From: a virus
DNA length: 30,150 nt
Virus record (IMG/VR): IMGVR_UViG_3300020438_000168
Coordinates: 1 to 30,150 of that record
Direction: 5' to 3' (one strand)
Positions within the stretch are counted from its first letter, which is position 1. Each line of letters opens with the position of its first letter. Below are positions 21,442 to 29,940 of this stretch, piece after piece. The notes below the pieces were generated by a model. It searched no databases, was not told the origin of the DNA, and was given only the letters and a program-made list of their open reading frames with translations. The translations under genes and the position numbers were made by a program.

Positions 21442-23421
21442 GTGGCAACTAGAGCAGATATCGAAATTGCCGTAAAAGGTATAAGAAAACTCGAAGAAGC
21501 AAAAAAACAAATACGAGATCTTAATAAGGAGATTAATAAATCTAATAAACAGATTACCAAACAAGCTGAGAAAGAAGGTGCTGTCAGAAAAGGAAATAAA
21601 ACCTCTGTCGGTGCTGCTAGTCAAGTTAGAAGTATTAATACATTAAATAAACAACTTTCTACTGCGACTAGAAATTTTAATCGAGTTGCATTAGGTACAG
21701 ATGGTGCAGCTAAAGCAGCAATTCAACTTAAAAAAGCTCAAGATGCTTTAAACCTAGCTTATGCTCAACAAAATGATTTATTAGGCAAAAATGTACAAGC
21801 TCAAGGAGCATTTAGCAGAATATCTGATAAACAATCTAGAAATGCAGCAGGACAAAGAACACGAATGAATAATCCTATAGGTAGAGGAATGGCTAGTTTA
21901 GGAGCAACACAAGGATTTGATACTCAAAGTGCATTAATCAGTGGTGCATTCCCTTTGTTATTCGGTCAAGGGCCAGTAGGAGCAGCAGCAGGAGCTTTGG
22001 GTGGTGGTATTGGTGGAATGTTTGGTGGTATGGGTGGTTTTGCAGGAGGTATTGCAGCTACAGCACTTGTTCAATCAATACAAAGTGCTCTTGATGCTAT
22101 AAGTAAACTTGGACAGGCTATGGGGCCATTCACTCAGAATACCCAAGCTGTAACAGACGCACTAGGTTTACAGGGATCAGCAGAAGAATCTCGTTTAAAA
22201 TTAATAGAACAGACGCAAGGTAAAACAGCAGCCTTTAATGCTTCAATGAGATTAATGGCAACAGAAATAGGACAAAGGGGAGTAGATGCATTGAAACAAT
22301 TTGGAGAAAATACAAGATTATTAACAAGCTCATTTACTTTGGCGATAACAAAATTACAAGCATTTGCAGCAGGAGTAGCAAACTTTGTTGCAAGACTCAC
22401 TGGACTACAGGCTTCATTGGAAGCTGGAGCAGCTACTAGGACAGTTGCAGCAGCAGCAGGGGAAGGAGATGAACAAGCACAAGCTTTAGTTAATAGAAGA
22501 AATGCTGCGGAGTCAATGAAAAGTAGAGGAGGGGAAGGCAGAAGAAAGAAACAGTTACTAGAAGAAATTAGTGCCGAGGAGCAAATATTTGCAATTAGAA
22601 GAAATACATCAATAGAAGCAGATAATCTAACTCAAAAGTTCGATGGTTTAAAAACTAGTATTGAAGCAGAAGCGGAAGAAACAAAAAGAATTGTAGAATT
22701 AAGAAGAGATGGATTAAATCCAGCACTCGCTAAAACTATTGCTGGAATAGAAAAAGAAGGTAGTTTAGCTAAAGATGCTTTACAGGTAGAAATTGATAAA
22801 CTTTTAGAAAAACAAAAATTAGAAGCAATTTTAGGAGAAAAAGATCAAACCAGATTAACAACTTTAGAAGGTATAAAAAATAAAATAGACGAGCAAGTTG
22901 ATAGTTTGTCAGAAGCTGCAACTGCAACAGATAAACTAAACGAATCTACTAAAGATATAAAATCTAATTTTGAAAAAATTGGAGAGTCTATTGCTTCTGG
23001 TGTTAGTGATAATTTAGTTGCTGCAATTCAAGGAACAAAATCTTTAGGTGATGCTGCAAAATCAATATTAAATGATTTATCTTCAAGTCTCATAAGACTC
23101 GGTGTAAATACTATTTTGGGAGGAATACCTGGTTTTGGAGGACTTTTGGGTTTTGCAAGTGGAGGTAATCCACCTGTAGGTAAACCTTCAATAGTAGGAG
23201 AGAAAGGCCCAGAGTTATTCGTACCAAAAAGATCAGGTACAATAATTCCTAATGACAAATTAGGTGGAGGAGGTAGTACAAACATCAGCGTAAATGTAGA
23301 TGCCTCTGGATCGTCTGTTCAAGGTGATGAACAACAAAGTAAAGAACTTGGCAGGGCTATCTCAGCAGCGATACAATCAGAATTATTAAAACAAAGAAGA
23401 CCTGGAGGTTTATTAAGATAA
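21442..23421 (+). CDS. Tail tape measure protein
   Basis: 659-residue protein setting tail length; at roughly 0.15 nm per residue this predicts a tail of about 100 nm. GTG start. N-terminal coiled coil (KGIRKLEEAKKQIRDLNKEI), a Gly-rich hydrophobic segment near residues 170-215 (GGGIGGMFGGMGGFAGGIAA) that may insert in the membrane, long helical regions, and a C-terminal FASGGNPPVGKPSIVGEKGP with ELFVPKRSGTIIPN, a motif common at tape-measure C-termini. Follows the G/GT chaperones and overlaps the next gene by one base. Confidence 0.92.
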   Translation: MATRADIEIAVKGIRKLEEAKKQIRDLNKEINKSNKQITKQAEKEGAVRKGNKTSVGAASQVRSINTLNKQLSTATRNFNRVALGTDGAAKAAIQLKKAQDALNLAYAQQNDLLGKNVQAQGAFSRISDKQSRNAAGQRTRMNNPIGRGMASLGATQGFDTQSALISGAFPLLFGQGPVGAAAGALGGGIGGMFGGMGGFAGGIAATALVQSIQSALDAISKLGQAMGPFTQNTQAVTDALGLQGSAEESRLKLIEQTQGKTAAFNASMRLMATEIGQRGVDALKQFGENTRLLTSSFTLAITKLQAFAAGVANFVARLTGLQASLEAGAATRTVAAAAGEGDEQAQALVNRRNAAESMKSRGGEGRRKKQLLEEISAEEQIFAIRRNTSIEADNLTQKFDGLKTSIEAEAEETKRIVELRRDGLNPALAKTIAGIEKEGSLAKDALQVEIDKLLEKQKLEAILGEKDQTRLTTLEGIKNKIDEQVDSLSEAATATDKLNESTKDIKSNFEKIGESIASGVSDNLVAAIQGTKSLGDAAKSILNDLSSSLIRLGVNTILGGIPGFGGLLGFASGGNPPVGKPSIVGEKGPELFVPKRSGTIIPNDKLGGGGSTNISVNVDASGSSVQGDEQQSKELGRAISAAIQSELLKQRRPGGLLR

Positions 23422-23762
23422 TGGCTACTTTTCCTAGTTATAACCCTGTTTTTTCTGCAAATAAAACTGATATTACTAATACCAGAACAGTTCAGTTTGG
23501 TGATGGCTACCAACAAAGATTTACATTTGGTATAAATCAAAAAGCAAAGCAATGGAGTTTAACATTTAATGAAAATGATGAAGATACGGCTGAAATAGAA
23601 ACATTTCTAGAAGCAAGAAAAGTTGATGGAGCATCTTTTGATTGGTCTCCTCCTGATTCAACTACAACTTTTAAATGGATTTGTCCTTCGTTTACTAAAG
23701 AAATATTTGAATTTAATAGAAATAGAATTAATGCAACATTTACACAAGTATTTGAACCTTAA
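23421..23762 (+). CDS. Minor tail protein (lambda gpM-like)
   Basis: 113 residues: FPSYNPVFSANKTDITNTR, VQFGDGYQQRFTFGINQKAK, then FLEARKVDGASFDWSPPDST and WICPSFTKEIFEFNRNRINA. The FGDGYxQR and F-x-W-x-PP-x(n)-W pattern is that of the phage minor tail protein M family, part of the tail tip. Overlaps the tape measure and the next gene by one base each. Confidence 0.85.
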   Translation: MATFPSYNPVFSANKTDITNTRTVQFGDGYQQRFTFGINQKAKQWSLTFNENDEDTAEIETFLEARKVDGASFDWSPPDSTTTFKWICPSFTKEIFEFNRNRINATFTQVFEP

Positions 23763-24748
23763 TGGCAAATCCTGTATCTGAAACCCAATCCATAAATCCT
23801 GGTTCAGTTATTGAACTATTTGAGCTAACAACAGATGCAGCTTTACATGGATCGGCTACAACTTACCGATTTCATGCTGGTACAAATGAAGTTAATAATG
23901 GAAATATTATTTGGGATGGAAATACTTATATTGCAATACCGATGGAAGCTGAAGGTTTTAAATATGCAAATGGTCAATTACCTCGACCTACTCTGACTAT
24001 CAGTAATGTTACTAATGTAATTACAGCTATTTTGTTAAACGTAAATATATTAACTCCTGGAAATGATCTTACTGGTGCGGTAGTAAAAAGAAGAACAACT
24101 TTAGCAAGATTTTTAGACTCTGCAAATTTTAATCCTGTAGCCACAACAACTACATCAACTTCAACTATTGCTGATCCTTCTGATGTAGAAACTGTGACTT
24201 ACACAGTAACAGTAGTGAATGTAGGTGGTTCTAATTATTTTGCTATTAATGGGGTTACAAATCCAGTTCTTACAATGAAACGTGCATCAACTTATATTTT
24301 TAATCAAGCAGATGCTACAAATGCAAACCATCCACTAAGAATAAAATCTGATGCTGGAGGATCACAAACTACAACTGTTAGCGGGACTCCTGGGCAAGCA
24401 GGGGCAACAGTAACTTATCAGCCAGCATATCCAACCGCACCAAATGATTTGAGATACTATTGCAGCGTTCATGGTAATGGAATGGGAAATACAATTACAA
24501 TGAATAACCCAAATACGATCCAACAACAAACAAGTTCAACTTCTACAAGTCAATCAAACCCTTACGGAACACCTGATCCAACAGCAGAATATCCTCAACA
24601 AATTTACAAAATAGATAGAAAATCAGCAGAAAATAGAGCCGTTGTTCAATTTGAATTAGCTGCTTCTTTTGATCTGGCAAATATAAGAATCCCTTTAAGA
24701 GTATGCACTAAGCAACTATTTCCTTCTATTGGTACGTTTATGCCATGA
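23762..24748 (+). CDS. Minor tail protein (lambda gpL-like) with inserted cupredoxin-like domain
   Basis: 328-residue tail-tip protein. Residues 1-125 and 265-328 follow the gpL pattern (VIELFELTTDA, NTYIAIPMEAEGFKYANGQL, FLDSANF and NPYGTPDPTAEYPQQIY, IDRKSAENRAVVQFELAASF). Between FLDSANF and NPYGTPD sits about 130 extra residues with Ser/Thr-rich linkers. The insert reads TYTVTVVN, MKRASTYIFNQADATNANHP, and RYYCSVHGNGMGN: a cupredoxin (plastocyanin-like) layout with His190, Cys234, His237 and Met241 as candidate copper ligands. Lambda gpL ends in a Fe-S domain with four Cys; here only Cys315 follows and the protein stops at FPSIGTFMP. The stop overlaps the next ATG (ATGA). Confidence 0.82.
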   Translation: MANPVSETQSINPGSVIELFELTTDAALHGSATTYRFHAGTNEVNNGNIIWDGNTYIAIPMEAEGFKYANGQLPRPTLTISNVTNVITAILLNVNILTPGNDLTGAVVKRRTTLARFLDSANFNPVATTTTSTSTIADPSDVETVTYTVTVVNVGGSNYFAINGVTNPVLTMKRASTYIFNQADATNANHPLRIKSDAGGSQTTTVSGTPGQAGATVTYQPAYPTAPNDLRYYCSVHGNGMGNTITMNNPNTIQQQTSSTSTSQSNPYGTPDPTAEYPQQIYKIDRKSAENRAVVQFELAASFDLANIRIPLRVCTKQLFPSIGTFMP

Positions 24749-25449
24749 GTGATTGGAAGGAAGCTGCTCTCAGTCATGCAAAAGTTGAAGATCCGAAAGA
24801 ATCTGTTGGTCTTTTGTTAAATGTAAAAGGTAAAGAAAAATATTATCCCTGTAATAATTTATCTATGACTTCATATCAATGTTTTGTTCTCGATCCAGTT
24901 GATTATGTAAAAGCTGATTCTGTTGGTGAGATTACAGGCATTGTTCATAGTCATCCAGTTACTCCTCCAACTCCGAGTCAGGCAGATTTGATTAGCTGTG
25001 AAGATTCTAATTTACCTTGGCATATTGTTAATCCAAAAACAGAAAAGTGGGGTTACTGCGAACCAAGTGGTTATAAAGCTCCATTACTAGGAAGAGAATG
25101 GGTTTGGGGTATAACAGATTGTTGGTCATTAGTTATTGATTGGTATAAAGAAGAGAAAGGAATTGAATTATTAGACTATAAAAGACCAGCAAAAGTAGAA
25201 GATTTCTTAAATGATCCTGTTTTTGAAAGGTATTTACCTAGCAGGGGTTTTAGATTACTAGATCCAAACGAAGAATTAATAAATGGTGATGTTTTAGCAA
25301 TGAGTATCTTTGGACAAGGATTAAATCATGTGGCTATTTTCTTAGATGGAGATGTTTTACATCATTTAGCAGATAGACTATCTTGTAGAGAGGCATACTC
25401 ACCTTGGTTATTAAAATGTACAGGAGGGCGGTATCGTTATGTTGCGTAA
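24745..25449 (+). CDS. Tail-tip JAMM/MPN plus NlpC/P60 protein (lambda gpK-like)
   Basis: Two-domain tail assembly protein. N-terminal JAB/JAMM metalloprotease-like domain: Glu19 (ESVG), His68-Ser-His70-Pro, Ser78 and Asp81, a complete E...HxH...SxxD zinc site. C-terminal NlpC/P60 peptidase: Cys126 in GITDCWSLVIDWY and His195 in NHVAIFLD. In this family one domain may process tail proteins while the other can cut peptidoglycan cross-bridges at DNA entry. 234 residues is the normal length. Overlaps both neighbours. Confidence 0.9.
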   Translation: MSDWKEAALSHAKVEDPKESVGLLLNVKGKEKYYPCNNLSMTSYQCFVLDPVDYVKADSVGEITGIVHSHPVTPPTPSQADLISCEDSNLPWHIVNPKTEKWGYCEPSGYKAPLLGREWVWGITDCWSLVIDWYKEEKGIELLDYKRPAKVEDFLNDPVFERYLPSRGFRLLDPNEELINGDVLAMSIFGQGLNHVAIFLDGDVLHHLADRLSCREAYSPWLLKCTGGRYRYVA

Positions 25450-26095
25450 ACTAAAATTGTATGGAGAGCTGGCTAAATTTATAGGCCACAAAGAATTTGA
25501 AGTGCAAGTACATAATTTACCTCAAGCTATTAGTTTTTTAGTAAATAATTTTCCAGAAGTTGAAAAGTATATGACTCCTAAACATTATCAAGTAAAAATT
25601 GGGAATTACGAGATTAATGAAGATGAATTAGATTATCCAATAGGACAACAGGATATTCATATCGTTCCAGTAATATCAGGAGCAGGGGGTGGATTTAGAA
25701 ATATCTTATTGGGAGGATTATTAATTGGTGCGTCATTCTTTTTTCCAGGTGCAGGATTATTCGGTACTCAAAGTTTTGGAGGAGCTTTAGCTGCTGGATC
25801 TGCGTCAGCAATACCTTTTGTAGGAGCTACTGGAGTAGCTGGTAGTGTTCTTGGAACAGCTATTGGTACAGGATTAAGTGCGATTGGTGCTGGAATGGTT
25901 TTAAATGGTGTTGGTGAAATGTTATATCCTACCCAACAGGCTTCCTTTGAAGACAATCCACAAATATCATTTAATTTCTCTGGAACGCAAAACACAGCAA
26001 GGGCTGGTACTCCAGTTCCGATTGTTTATGGTGAAATATTTACAGGTTCCGTTGTTATTAGTGGCGATGTAGATACAGAAGCGGTACAGGTATGA
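25439..26095 (+). CDS. Tail assembly protein (lambda gpI-like)
   Basis: 218 residues: an N-terminal ubiquitin-like region (LRKLKLYGELAKFIGHKEFE, ISFLVNNFPEVEKYM, IHIVPVISGAG), a long Gly/Ala-rich hydrophobic middle (about 85-160, NILLGGLLIGASFFFPGAG), and a C-terminal strand segment ending FNFSGTQNTARAGTPVPIVY and GEIFTGSVVISG. This is the gpI layout. The hydrophobic middle may be membrane-active or buried in the tail tip. Coupled by ATGA to J. Confidence 0.88.
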   Translation: MLRKLKLYGELAKFIGHKEFEVQVHNLPQAISFLVNNFPEVEKYMTPKHYQVKIGNYEINEDELDYPIGQQDIHIVPVISGAGGGFRNILLGGLLIGASFFFPGAGLFGTQSFGGALAAGSASAIPFVGATGVAGSVLGTAIGTGLSAIGAGMVLNGVGEMLYPTQQASFEDNPQISFNFSGTQNTARAGTPVPIVYGEIFTGSVVISGDVDTEAVQV

Positions 26096-29000
26096 CGGAT
26101 ACAAATAAGTACATAGCAGGAGGAGGTGGAGGTTGCTTTACTGGTGATACTCCTGTTTCTATACCAGGTGGCACTAAATTAATTAAAGAGATTAGTGTTG
26201 GTGATATTGTTTGTAGTTTCGATGATAAAGGTACTATTTATCATGCCAAAGTTTTAAAAGTACATGAGCATGAAAAAGAATCTGTTACTAGATATAAAAT
26301 ATGGGGCGGTAAAGAATTAGATGCAACACCAAACCATTGGGTTTTAAATCAATTTAATGCGTTTGTCGGTATTGGCACGTTAAAGACTGATGATTGTTTA
26401 GTTGATGAATTTGGTCACTTAAGACCGATTGTTAAACGTACTGAACTTGGAGAACATACTGTCTATAACTTAACTGTTGAAGGGCATCATACTTTTATTG
26501 CTAATACTATTCGTGTTCATAATGCTGGATTAGGGCCAAGTATTGCTGGTGCTGGTGGAGGAGGAAGAAAAGGTGGAGGTGGAAGTCCTCCTACTATTAC
26601 TCCAGATAATTTACACAGTAAACAGTTTGCTACTTTACTTGATCTTATTTCTGAAGGTGAGATAGAAGGTTTTTCAAGTCCTTCAAAAGAAGGAAGAACT
26701 AAAGGCACTACTGCTTATTTCAATGCTGCAAAGAAAGATATTTTCCTAGACGATACTCCTATTTTAGCTTCTACTGCTGATTCAACTAATCCACAGAATG
26801 TTGAATTTAATCATCAAAATATAGACTTTGATGTTCGTTTTGGAACGAGTTCTCAAACTAAAATGTCTAAAGTTTCGGGAAGTTCTTCTGTCTTTAATGT
26901 GGGAGTAGAAGTACCAAATGGTAATCCTGTAACTAGACAACTTACTAATAATACTGATTTAGATGCTGTAAAAGTTACTGTTACTGTACCTACATTGCAA
27001 ATTTTAGAAGAGGATGGAGATATAAATGGTTCCCAAGTTACTTTTAATATTCAAATTCAATATAACGGAGGAGGTTTTACTACAGTTCTCTCCGACACTA
27101 TAAGAGGAAGAACAGCAGATGCTTATAACAGAGAATATAGAATTGCTCTTACTGGTGCTCATCCTGTAGATGTGCGTGTTACAAAAACCTCTGAAAATAG
27201 TACCGATAGAATAGCAAGAGATTTAATCTGGCAATCTTTTTCAGAATTAGAAGATGATTCAAGTACTTATCCTGACTGTGCTTACACAAGGTTGCGTTTA
27301 GATTCAGAATTTTTTACTAGGATTCCTGCTAGAAAGTTTAGAGTTAGAGGAGTAAAAGTAAGAATCCCAGGTGCAGGAGCTAACTCATCAGGAACTCCAA
27401 CTGTAGATTTACAAACTGGCAGAATAGTTTATCCAACTGGATATATTTTTAATGGAGTAATGGGTGCTGCTCAATGGACAACTTGCCCTGCTTTAATACT
27501 TTTAGATTTAATTACTAATACAAGGTATGGATTAGGTAATCATATTATTGATAGTAATTTAGATTTATTTTCATTTGTAACTGCAAGTAAGTTTTCTAAC
27601 GAACTTGTTGATGATGGATTTAATGGACAGGAAGCTAGATTTGCTTGCAATATAAATATTCAATCAAGTGTAGAAGCTTTTGATGTCATAAATACTTTAT
27701 CGGGAATAATGAGATGTATGCCTATTTGGTCTGAAGGGGCATTACTTCTTACTCAAGATAGTCCTAAAGATCCTAGTTACTTATTTACTTTGTCTAATGT
27801 TGGCCCCGAAGGATTCAGCTATACAGGTAGCAGCTTAAAAACTAGAAGCACAGTAGTTGCAGTTTCCTACTTTAATATGGAAACTAGAGATTTAGATTAT
27901 GAAGAAGTAGAAGCAGAGTCAGCTTATAGAAATAAATATGGATTACACGTTAAAAGAGTAAAAGCATTAGGTTGCACAAGTCGAGGTCAAGCTAGAAGAT
28001 TTGCAAAAGCAATATTATTTACAGAACAAAGAGAAACAGAAGTAGTAACTTTTTCTGCTTCAATGGAATCAGGAATTGTTGTTAGACCTGGAACGATTGT
28101 CAGCATTGCCGATCCAGGGAGATCAGGAGTAAGAAGAGGAGGAAGAATTAATACTGCTACGACTACTCAAATAACTGTAGATGATTCAGATTCAACTGAT
28201 TTATCTGCTGAAAACAACCCTAAATTAAGTGTAATACTACCAAATGGAACAGTTGAAACTAAAAATGTAACTGCAATATCAGGCAAGATAATTACTTTAG
28301 ATAGTGCTTTAAGTCAGACACCAAATTCTAATAGTGTTTGGTTACTTGAAAACGATACTATTTCTGCTCAGTCTTTCCGAGTTATATCTGTCGAAGAAGT
28401 CGATGGTATTAATTATGGAATAACAGCACTAGCTTATGTAAACGAAAAATATGCGTTTATTGAAGATAATCAGCCAATTCCAGTTCAAAAAATTACAACT
28501 TTAAATCTTCTTAAGCCTCCTCCTAGTGGATTATCAGCTAATGAAGTGATAGTTCTTATTAATAACCAGCCTGTATCTAAATTAATCGTTAGATGGCAGC
28601 CTGTAACTGGTGTTTCAAATTATTTAGTTAACTATAGATTTAAAGATAATAATATTGTTTCAGTTACAACAAGTAGTCCTGATTTTGAAATTATCAACTC
28701 ACAGGTTGGAGCTTATGAAGTATCTGTTCGTAGTTTAAATGCTGCTCTAGAACCTAGTGCTACAGATTCAAGTGATACTTTTACTGCCGTTGGTAAAACT
28801 GCTGTTCCTGCTGATGTAACAGGACTAACGGGAGAACCAATAAATGAAAAACTTGTAAGATTACGTTGGAATTTAGCAACAGATTTAGATGTTACTCATG
28901 GTGGTCGTGTTTATGTAAGACACTCTTCAAAAGTTGATGGAACGGGATCTTTTTCTAACGCTACTGACCTTATTGAAGCATTAGCTGGTAATACAACACA

Positions 29001-29940
29001 AGCAGAAGTTCCTTATTTAGAAGGAGAATACATTCTAAAGTTTCAAGATGATGGTGGAAGATTTAGTGCTGGAGAATCAAGCGTAATTTTAGATTTACCT
29101 GATAATATAGATGCGAAAATAGTACAAACAAGAAGAGAAGATTCAGATGTTCCAAAATTTCAAGGAACAAAAACTAATGTTGCTTTTGACGCTACAACAA
29201 ATTCTCTCAACCTAACTGGTGTAGGACAGTTTGATAGTATTACTGATTTCGATTTAGTTTCATCTCTTGATGATGTAGGAGGTATTTCACCACTAGGTAC
29301 TTATGAATTTGGTGGAACGGCTGGAGGTACAACTTTAGATTTAGGAGATGTATTCAGTCTTGATCTCAAACGTCACTTCTTAACAGAAGCGTTTTATCCT
29401 AGTGATCTAATTGACTCAATACCAGACTTCGATCTTCGAGGAGATTTTGAAGGGCTAACTGCAACTAAAGTAAACGCAACTATGTTGGTTCGTGTGACCC
29501 AAGATGATCCTAGTAGTGGATCTCCTACTTATAGTGGGTTTCAAACCTTTGCTAATGGAACATACAAAGGAAGAGGTTTTCAATTTAAAGTGAATTTAAC
29601 AAGTGATGATCCAGCACAGGATATTAGAGTTTTCCAACTAGGATATACAGCTTCTTTACAAAGAAGAACAGAACAAAGTGCTGCGACTATAGCAAGTGGA
29701 GCAGCAGCAAAAGCAGTCACGTTCCAACATCCGTTCTTTTCTGGTACGGCTGGGCTTGGTGGTGCGAATACTAGTTTACCTTCTGTTGGTATTACTGCAT
29801 ATAATATGGCTTCGGGAGACTTCTTTGAAGTTTCTAGCGTTAGTAGAACTGGGTTTAGTGTTCACTTTAAAAACTCATCAAATGCTTCAGTTGATAGAAA
29901 TTTCACCTATCAGGCTGTCGGATTTGGTAAAGCAAGTTAG
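26092..29940 (+). CDS. Tail tip host-specificity protein (lambda gpJ-like) carrying a Hint domain
   Basis: 1282-residue central tip protein. After a 14-residue Gly-rich start, residues 15-144 form an intein-like Hint domain (see separate entry). The J homology then begins with Gly-rich linker and LHSKQFATLLDLISEGEIEG (about 174-193), and continues through TRIPARKFRVRGVKVRIPG, LILLDLITNTRYGLGNHIID, FDVINTLSGIMRCMPIWSEG and KRVKALGCTSRGQARRFAKA, all lambda-J landmarks. Two fibronectin-III-like repeats lie at about 807-903 and 904-1003. The C-terminal region (after 1010) has tail-fibre-like beta sequence and probably contacts the receptor. Confidence 0.93.
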   Translation: MTDTNKYIAGGGGGCFTGDTPVSIPGGTKLIKEISVGDIVCSFDDKGTIYHAKVLKVHEHEKESVTRYKIWGGKELDATPNHWVLNQFNAFVGIGTLKTDDCLVDEFGHLRPIVKRTELGEHTVYNLTVEGHHTFIANTIRVHNAGLGPSIAGAGGGGRKGGGGSPPTITPDNLHSKQFATLLDLISEGEIEGFSSPSKEGRTKGTTAYFNAAKKDIFLDDTPILASTADSTNPQNVEFNHQNIDFDVRFGTSSQTKMSKVSGSSSVFNVGVEVPNGNPVTRQLTNNTDLDAVKVTVTVPTLQILEEDGDINGSQVTFNIQIQYNGGGFTTVLSDTIRGRTADAYNREYRIALTGAHPVDVRVTKTSENSTDRIARDLIWQSFSELEDDSSTYPDCAYTRLRLDSEFFTRIPARKFRVRGVKVRIPGAGANSSGTPTVDLQTGRIVYPTGYIFNGVMGAAQWTTCPALILLDLITNTRYGLGNHIIDSNLDLFSFVTASKFSNELVDDGFNGQEARFACNINIQSSVEAFDVINTLSGIMRCMPIWSEGALLLTQDSPKDPSYLFTLSNVGPEGFSYTGSSLKTRSTVVAVSYFNMETRDLDYEEVEAESAYRNKYGLHVKRVKALGCTSRGQARRFAKAILFTEQRETEVVTFSASMESGIVVRPGTIVSIADPGRSGVRRGGRINTATTTQITVDDSDSTDLSAENNPKLSVILPNGTVETKNVTAISGKIITLDSALSQTPNSNSVWLLENDTISAQSFRVISVEEVDGINYGITALAYVNEKYAFIEDNQPIPVQKITTLNLLKPPPSGLSANEVIVLINNQPVSKLIVRWQPVTGVSNYLVNYRFKDNNIVSVTTSSPDFEIINSQVGAYEVSVRSLNAALEPSATDSSDTFTAVGKTAVPADVTGLTGEPINEKLVRLRWNLATDLDVTHGGRVYVRHSSKVDGTGSFSNATDLIEALAGNTTQAEVPYLEGEYILKFQDDGGRFSAGESSVILDLPDNIDAKIVQTRREDSDVPKFQGTKTNVAFDATTNSLNLTGVGQFDSITDFDLVSSLDDVGGISPLGTYEFGGTAGGTTLDLGDVFSLDLKRHFLTEAFYPSDLIDSIPDFDLRGDFEGLTATKVNATMLVRVTQDDPSSGSPTYSGFQTFANGTYKGRGFQFKVNLTSDDPAQDIRVFQLGYTASLQRRTEQSAATIASGAAAKAVTFQHPFFSGTAGLGGANTSLPSVGITAYNMASGDFFEVSSVSRTGFSVHFKNSSNASVDRNFTYQAVGFGKAS
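26134..26523 (+). other. Hint (mini-intein / bacterial intein-like) domain within J
   Basis: 130 residues from Cys15 to Asn144. Block A is CFTGDTPVSIPGG (15-27), block B contains ATPNHWVL with the TxxH His82, block F is HTVYNLTVEGHHTFIAN, and it ends VHN. No homing endonuclease is inserted. The residue after Asn144 is Ala, not Cys/Ser/Thr, so standard intein splicing lacks its nucleophile. The flanks are Gly-rich on both sides (AGGGGG before, AGLGPSIAGAGGGG after). This matches A-type bacterial intein-like domains, which cleave and can splice at low level. Confidence 0.85.

Follow-up and report, generated by a model that had tools for sequence, protein, structure and literature searches.

A predicted cupredoxin domain with a conserved copper-type ligand set in the gpL-type tail-tip protein of marine lambda-like phages

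The gpL-type tail-tip protein encoded in IMG/VR virus record IMGVR_UViG_3300020438_000168 (positions 1 to 30,150; this whole stretch of 30,150 nucleotides is referred to as the window) carries a large internal insertion and lacks the cysteines that would hold an iron-sulfur (Fe-S) cluster. The locus raises the question of what this insertion is, how its gain relates to the loss of the Fe-S cysteines, and what purpose it may serve at the host-contacting end of the tail. An earlier note on the same DNA had proposed a cupredoxin-like copper-site domain, possibly gained in exchange for the Fe-S cluster.

The gene is located in a tail gene cluster in the order M-L-K-I-J (23421-29940), as in the lambda gpL family:

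23421-23762, + strand: gpM-type neighbour (Phage_min_tail; Pfam 1.1e-22)
23762-24748, + strand: gpL-type tail-tip (hub HDI) protein, 328 aa (PF05100, PHROG 18, Foldseek)
24745-25449, + strand: gpK-type neighbour (JAB and NlpC/P60; Pfam 6.9e-11 and 1.2e-10)
25439-26095, + strand: gpI-type neighbour (PHROG 32, 5.2e-40)
26092-29940, + strand: gpJ-type central fibre/hub protein (PHROG 31, 1.4e-170)

The gpL protein matches the Phage_tail_L profile (PF05100) at 1.1e-25 (90.6 bits, cutoff 25) and PHROG 18 at 1.2e-43, and Foldseek with its full-length model returned lambda gpL (8iyk_L, E 1.7e-7) as top match, followed by rusticyanins in the next three places. The best match among viral structure predictions, the deposited 329-aa protein K7XRW7, is 92% identical, so that this gpL is already represented in UniProt; the same protein is encoded at 70% identity in AG-345-A17, a single-cell marine virus record.

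A separate observation concerns the neighbouring gpJ-type protein, the Gly-rich start of which harbours a Hint/intein-like domain (26134-26529, about aa 15-146; motif CFTGDTPV ... VHN-AGLG; Pfam Hint 9e-7, Intein_splicing 1e-5) with Ala rather than Cys, Ser or Thr following HN. Present in 22 and absent from 37 of the 59 insert-gpL loci spanning the site, it represents a polymorphic insertion; in those gpJ proteins without it that were read, the Gly-rich stretch is unbroken.

Comparison with insert-less homologues, including the 190-aa gpL of Prochlorococcus phage MED4-184, delimited the insertion from just past DSANF (aa 124) to just ahead of NPYGTP (aa 265) and yielded the following parts:

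23762-24130, + strand: N-terminal part of the gpL core (aa 1-123), alignable with 8iyk_L and F2-pyocin 25vf_7 as far as the FLD-xNF motif
24131-24556, + strand: insertion (aa 124-265, 142 aa), absent from MED4-184-type and S-H1-type gpL
24134-24172, + strand: Thr/Ser-rich strand 1 of a predicted beta-ribbon stalk (aa 125-137; DSSP of the model)
24182-24505, + strand: cupredoxin-like domain (aa 141-248, 108 residues; domain model, Foldseek)
24329-24331, + strand: codon of His190, first predicted copper ligand (His in 82/82)
24461-24463, + strand: codon of Cys234, predicted copper thiolate ligand (Cys in 82/82)
24470-24472, + strand: codon of His237, predicted copper ligand (His in 82/82)
24482-24484, + strand: codon of Met241, predicted axial copper ligand (Met in 82/82)
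24515-24553, + strand: Thr/Ser-rich strand 2 of the predicted stalk (aa 252-264; DSSP of the model)
24557-24745, + strand: C-terminal part of the gpL core (aa 266-328) with one Cys (315)

The insertion announced in the earlier note as about 130 residues does exist, but measures 142 aa against the insert-less homologues. The domain, placed there at 24191-24510, was recovered as a folded unit closely nearby (24182-24505), and His190, Cys234, His237 and Met241 with their C-x2-H-x3-M spacing occupy the positions named. Equally, the protein does possess only two Cys (234 and 315) and ends 13 residues past the second one.

Structure prediction of the insert region, suggested in the earlier note, was carried out with aa 141-248 and 36 relatives and resulted in a confident fold (pLDDT 96.0, pTM 0.89), the best PDB matches of which are copper proteins. 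Foldseek retrieved the copper nitrite reductase of Hyphomicrobium (2dv6_A, 4.9e-5), rusticyanin (1rcy, 2.0e-4) and, likewise among the top matches, two-domain laccases, with a probability of about 1.00 for the leading copper proteins; no Ig structures were present among the best 50 PDB fold matches listed. These matches are remote ones (TM about 0.5-0.7 by query length, rmsd about 4-6 A). A model of the whole gpL with 47 relatives (mean pLDDT 78; five models ranging 51-78) is less sure outside the insert, which itself scores about 89-95. On the sequence level, a 12-member profile reached copper nitrite reductase (1.3e-3) and plastocyanin 2plt (0.013), and the amicyanin model TIGR02657 matched 4 of 12 family members (best 8.1e-5). 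Pfam cupredoxin models matched single family members weakly (0.02-0.05), and neither single-sequence search nor a five-sequence profile detected a cupredoxin in PDB at a useful E-value.

In the profile alignment, His, Cys, His and Met pair with the copper ligands of cyanobacterial plastocyanin, and the domain displays the type-1 sequence pattern of a His followed in order by Cys-x2-4-His-x2-4-Met near the C-terminus. By its model, the domain is a Greek-key beta-barrel of cupredoxin type. Model confidence, fold matches and ligand alignment jointly support the proposal of a cupredoxin-like domain with a full H/C/H/M set, and we consider it very probable from model and sequence that the insert represents a cupredoxin domain in which the type-1-like ligand set is intact. 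It shares predicted fold and His...Cys-x2-His-xn-Met ligand order with plastocyanin, amicyanin, rusticyanin and copper nitrite reductase domains, but differs from blue copper proteins in being embedded in a virion protein and remote in sequence; whereas plastocyanin is a stand-alone soluble electron carrier, the gpL domain lies within a tail-tip protein. The spacing between the last two ligands is x2 in amicyanin and x4 in plastocyanin, with the C-x2-H-x3-M of the gpL domain falling in between.

All four residues are invariant in 82 of 82 insert-bearing gpL rows (80 relatives from a viral-contig scan, AG-345-A17 and the window), comprising distinct inserts in at least 60; homologues that keep the insert and lose ligand residues were looked for and not found in this set. 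Codon use among the 82 varies synonymously (H190, 52 CAT/30 CAC; C234, 49 TGC/33 TGT; H237, 72 CAT/10 CAC).

The domain is also encountered outside gpL. A search with the domain alone matched 147 of 50,697 annotated phage records, all of them marine or seawater phages by name, among them Synechococcus and Prochlorococcus phages, cyanophages, Pelagibacter and Methylophilales phages and a seawater phage. In the records opened, the carriers are annotated as baseplate wedge-fibre connector (gp9), tail fibre, virion structural protein or hypothetical protein, and in one case as PetE. The domain set matched twelve PHROG families, and nine carry the class tail or head. Across these marine-phage proteins (19-54% identity to the reference), H, C, H and M make up four of nine invariant columns. 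Scans of viral contigs yielded 80 fibre-type and 80 gp9-type loci with all four ligands kept in 80/80 of each, the seeding peptides partly including the ligand region. A profile run without such seeding, applied to 15,022 ORFs of 413 loci, detected 279 distinct domain hits, of which 227 have the complete H/C/H/M set; in the 228-229 hits covering them, the C, H and M columns show 100% conservation. The 227 sequences derive mostly from marine-phage structural proteins. A chance motif is ruled out by the 82 gpL rows together with these 227 distinct domains, and recent ancestry as cause of the invariance by the synonymous codons and the low identity across proteins: ligand invariance is not just a matter of recent copying. 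Many of the loci L193-L236 were in addition observed to encode an ORF family of ~230-315 aa with the cupredoxin domain at the extreme C-terminus.

The PetE annotation and a ligand set matching that of electron-transfer cupredoxins might be taken to indicate a redox function, with a blue-copper site passing electrons or scavenging reactive oxygen at the envelope as the phage enters. This we regard as very improbable, given that gpL possesses neither a partner domain nor a second redox centre, its Fe-S cysteines being absent, and that the carriers are structural proteins in fibre or baseplate contexts. Capture of a cellular electron carrier was likewise rejected, as no close cellular relative was detected in 84,980 species genomes by a scan that reaches close relatives only; a distant cellular source of the domain is possible. 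The only relative confirmed in that scan lies on a short contig binned to Neomarinimicrobiota (L414:3-974), the other ORFs of which appear phage-like. Outside gpL, its protein is the closest relative of the domain (59%) and has the same C-x2-H-x3-M spacing. Most likely, marine phages shuffle the domain among baseplate, fibre and tip proteins.

About 48 of the domain hits lack the first His, most of them being the domain copy in a baseplate protein of ~830 aa from cyanomyoviruses. In the six copies read through (L342, L340, L359, L390, L398, L399), all four ligands are replaced and the C-terminal motif has become e.g. VFGYQTSGLG, while the strand sequence persists. Intact copies occur within the same ~830-aa protein, and the like-sized protein of phage S-ShM2 contains a copy that retains GHGILF...YYFCYNHANM. 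Since the decayed baseplate copy kept the fold yet lost all four ligands at once, retention of the ligands is not dictated by the fold alone; that the ligands are either kept all four or lost together argues for selection on the predicted metal site in the gpL clade.

These copies bear on the possibility that the domain is a sturdy beta-sandwich decoration of the Ig-like sort, in which metal, if bound, adds stability and has no specific job. The ligand-less cyanomyovirus copies speak for it in that the fold alone can be useful, and phage tail proteins frequently contain Ig-like domains, as cited in PMC10721106. We nevertheless judge it rather unlikely: the full set of four ligands is maintained in 227 distinct domains, the degenerate lineage has lost all four at once, and a structural role would not obviously need Cys and Met besides two His.

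The gpL-derived domain sequences group in a single clade (98/98, 100% of bootstrap trees), the protein of the Neomarinimicrobiota-binned contig being their nearest neighbour; by this phylogeny the domain in gpL is of single origin. In a tree of the gpL core, the insert-bearing clade is sister to the MED4-184 type (99/97), the S-H1 type branching outside. MED4-184-type gpL (59 distinct sequences) has 0-1 Cys and no insert, and S-H1-type gpL (57 distinct) has four or five Cys in the C-terminal part, also without insert. Relative to lambda gpL, the present protein agrees in core fold, in gene order and in matching sequence to either side of the insert, and differs by the 142-aa cupredoxin insertion after FLD-ANF and by lacking the C-terminal Fe-S domain with its four Cys. 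Cys315 is the sole Cys of its C-terminal part, where four that bind a [4Fe-4S] cluster are typical of the family without being universal, and the protein ends as MED4-184 gpL does, at the point where homologues begin the Fe-S domain. Cluster-less gpL homologues are known, among them the truncated gpL of phage Jersey (PMC13243795), and the missing Fe-S cysteines are therefore no bar to gpL family membership.

The earlier note had raised the idea that the tip swapped one metal centre for the other, i.e. that the copper domain replaced the Fe-S cluster. The survey of gpL homologues that it called for could lend this some credit, since no gpL with both insert and four-Cys tail was found in the insert-bearing, MED4-184-type and S-H1-type sets. 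The MED4-184-type sister clade, however, lost the Fe-S cysteines without gaining the domain, the loss being most simply the earlier event, and the two sites differ in position, the insert residing in HDI and the cluster at the C-terminus. Loss of the four-Cys tail is thus independent of the insert. Core tree and survey together speak against a metal-centre swap, which we regard as unsupported and highly improbable. Most simply, as read from the sequence phylogeny, loss of the Fe-S tail would have preceded gain of the copper domain, which would have taken place in a single branch; that the MED4-184 type lost the domain secondarily is possible.

As a side observation, the gpL proteins of cyanophages S-2L (L416) and S-CBS4 (L415) harbour a long insertion inside the Fe-S domain, past the second Cys (in S-2L between Cys220 and Cys402), marking this domain as another insertion hot spot.

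Ser/Thr-rich linkers flank the domain, as had been noticed before, and are predicted as two long strands. Their lengths are fixed (N 19, C 18 residues) while their letters vary in 34/34 distinct pairs fitting the pattern, the divergent L060-L082 group, which does not fit it, having been inspected by eye and left out of the count. The DSSP strand assignment suggests that the linkers form a two-stranded stalk holding the domain off the hub. Most likely the domain points outward from the tail tip, since a domain of such size should not fit in the ring or between stacked rings. It is dispensable for a working tail tip, because the insert-less sister clade infects Prochlorococcus.

Most likely, the domain serves marine phages as a metal-binding module of the virion surface and is shuffled among proteins that contact the host. 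Our overall best explanation, which we hold to be moderately probable, is a blue-copper-type cupredoxin gained once and serving as a stalked surface module that aids host contact. Accordingly worded as a sequence of events, a lineage of marine lambda-like siphophages would have acquired the domain once, inserted into HDI of gpL and carried by a stalk of two Thr/Ser-rich strands; as lambda gpL is trimeric, about three copies would be displayed around the tail tip. Because phage assembly takes place in a cytoplasm poor in free copper, loading after release is likely: the metal ion, most likely copper, would be taken up in seawater. Once bound, it may lock the binding loops of the domain, which would help the tip to contact or hold the host surface, as a metal-dependent counterpart of the Ig-like domains decorating phage tails. 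We infer copper as the metal, the surface position and the adsorption role; the latter, proposed from location and analogy, is put forward tentatively, as about an even prospect at best.

Alternatively, the copper-loaded domain could act as bait recognised by a host metal-uptake receptor, a copper version of the Trojan-horse idea advanced for tail-fibre iron. Copper is often toxic to picocyanobacteria and so a poor bait, we know of no receptor for such a bait, and the domain is found also in proteins classed as head/packaging; we consider the proposal improbable, even though among annotated records the domain is limited to marine phages, it occurs in host-contacting proteins, and iron bound at HxH sites in T4 and marine tail fibres provides a published parallel (PMC11705849).

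Among phage proteins, the closest counterparts are the homologous domains with the same four ligands in cyanomyovirus gp9 baseplate connectors, tail fibres and the fibres of pelagiphages and Methylophilales phages. Those have C-x2-H-x2-M spacing and reside in other proteins and positions, whereas the gpL copies form a clade of their own; a description of the gp9 and fibre domains as copper domains was not found in the literature searched. Ig-like and FNIII domains of phage tails resemble the gpL domain as mobile beta-sandwich modules on tail surfaces and, to our knowledge, contain no conserved metal site, while the best fold matches of the gpL domain are copper proteins. Of published ideas, the binding of iron by HxH motifs in T4 gp37 and marine tail fibres comes closest (PMC11705849). 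The common trait is a metal in a host-contacting tail protein, in the gpL domain a predicted one; HxH sites, however, are octahedral His-only iron sites in trimeric fibres, as opposed to a single-domain H/C/H/M site. A cupredoxin, plastocyanin or blue-copper domain in virions was not encountered in the open literature searched, and as far as this literature reaches, a class of virion copper metalloproteins has not been described.

As to the host, the capsid and tail proteins have their closest matches in AG-345-A17, followed by cyanophages (S-2L, KBS-S-2A, S-H1, MED4-184), the terminase is nearest to Vibrio phages, and DNA GC is 25-37%; a picocyanobacterial host is plausible.

Taken together, the results suggest that marine phages carry predicted copper-binding sites on their host-contacting end. 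That marine tailed phages at large bear working blue-copper centres there, as a shuffled module with copper used in adsorption or entry, is a possibility that we would voice only with reserve. The finding bears on the purpose of gpL metal centres, with lineages having an Fe-S cluster, others none, and one a predicted copper site in another part of the protein. Should the sites bind copper, the tails of many ocean phages would bear copper proteins, phage adsorption would be tied to trace-metal chemistry, and tail-tip function would become accessible by a visible (blue) and easily mutated handle. Copper would then join the debate on phages as metal ligands, which has hitherto been about iron.
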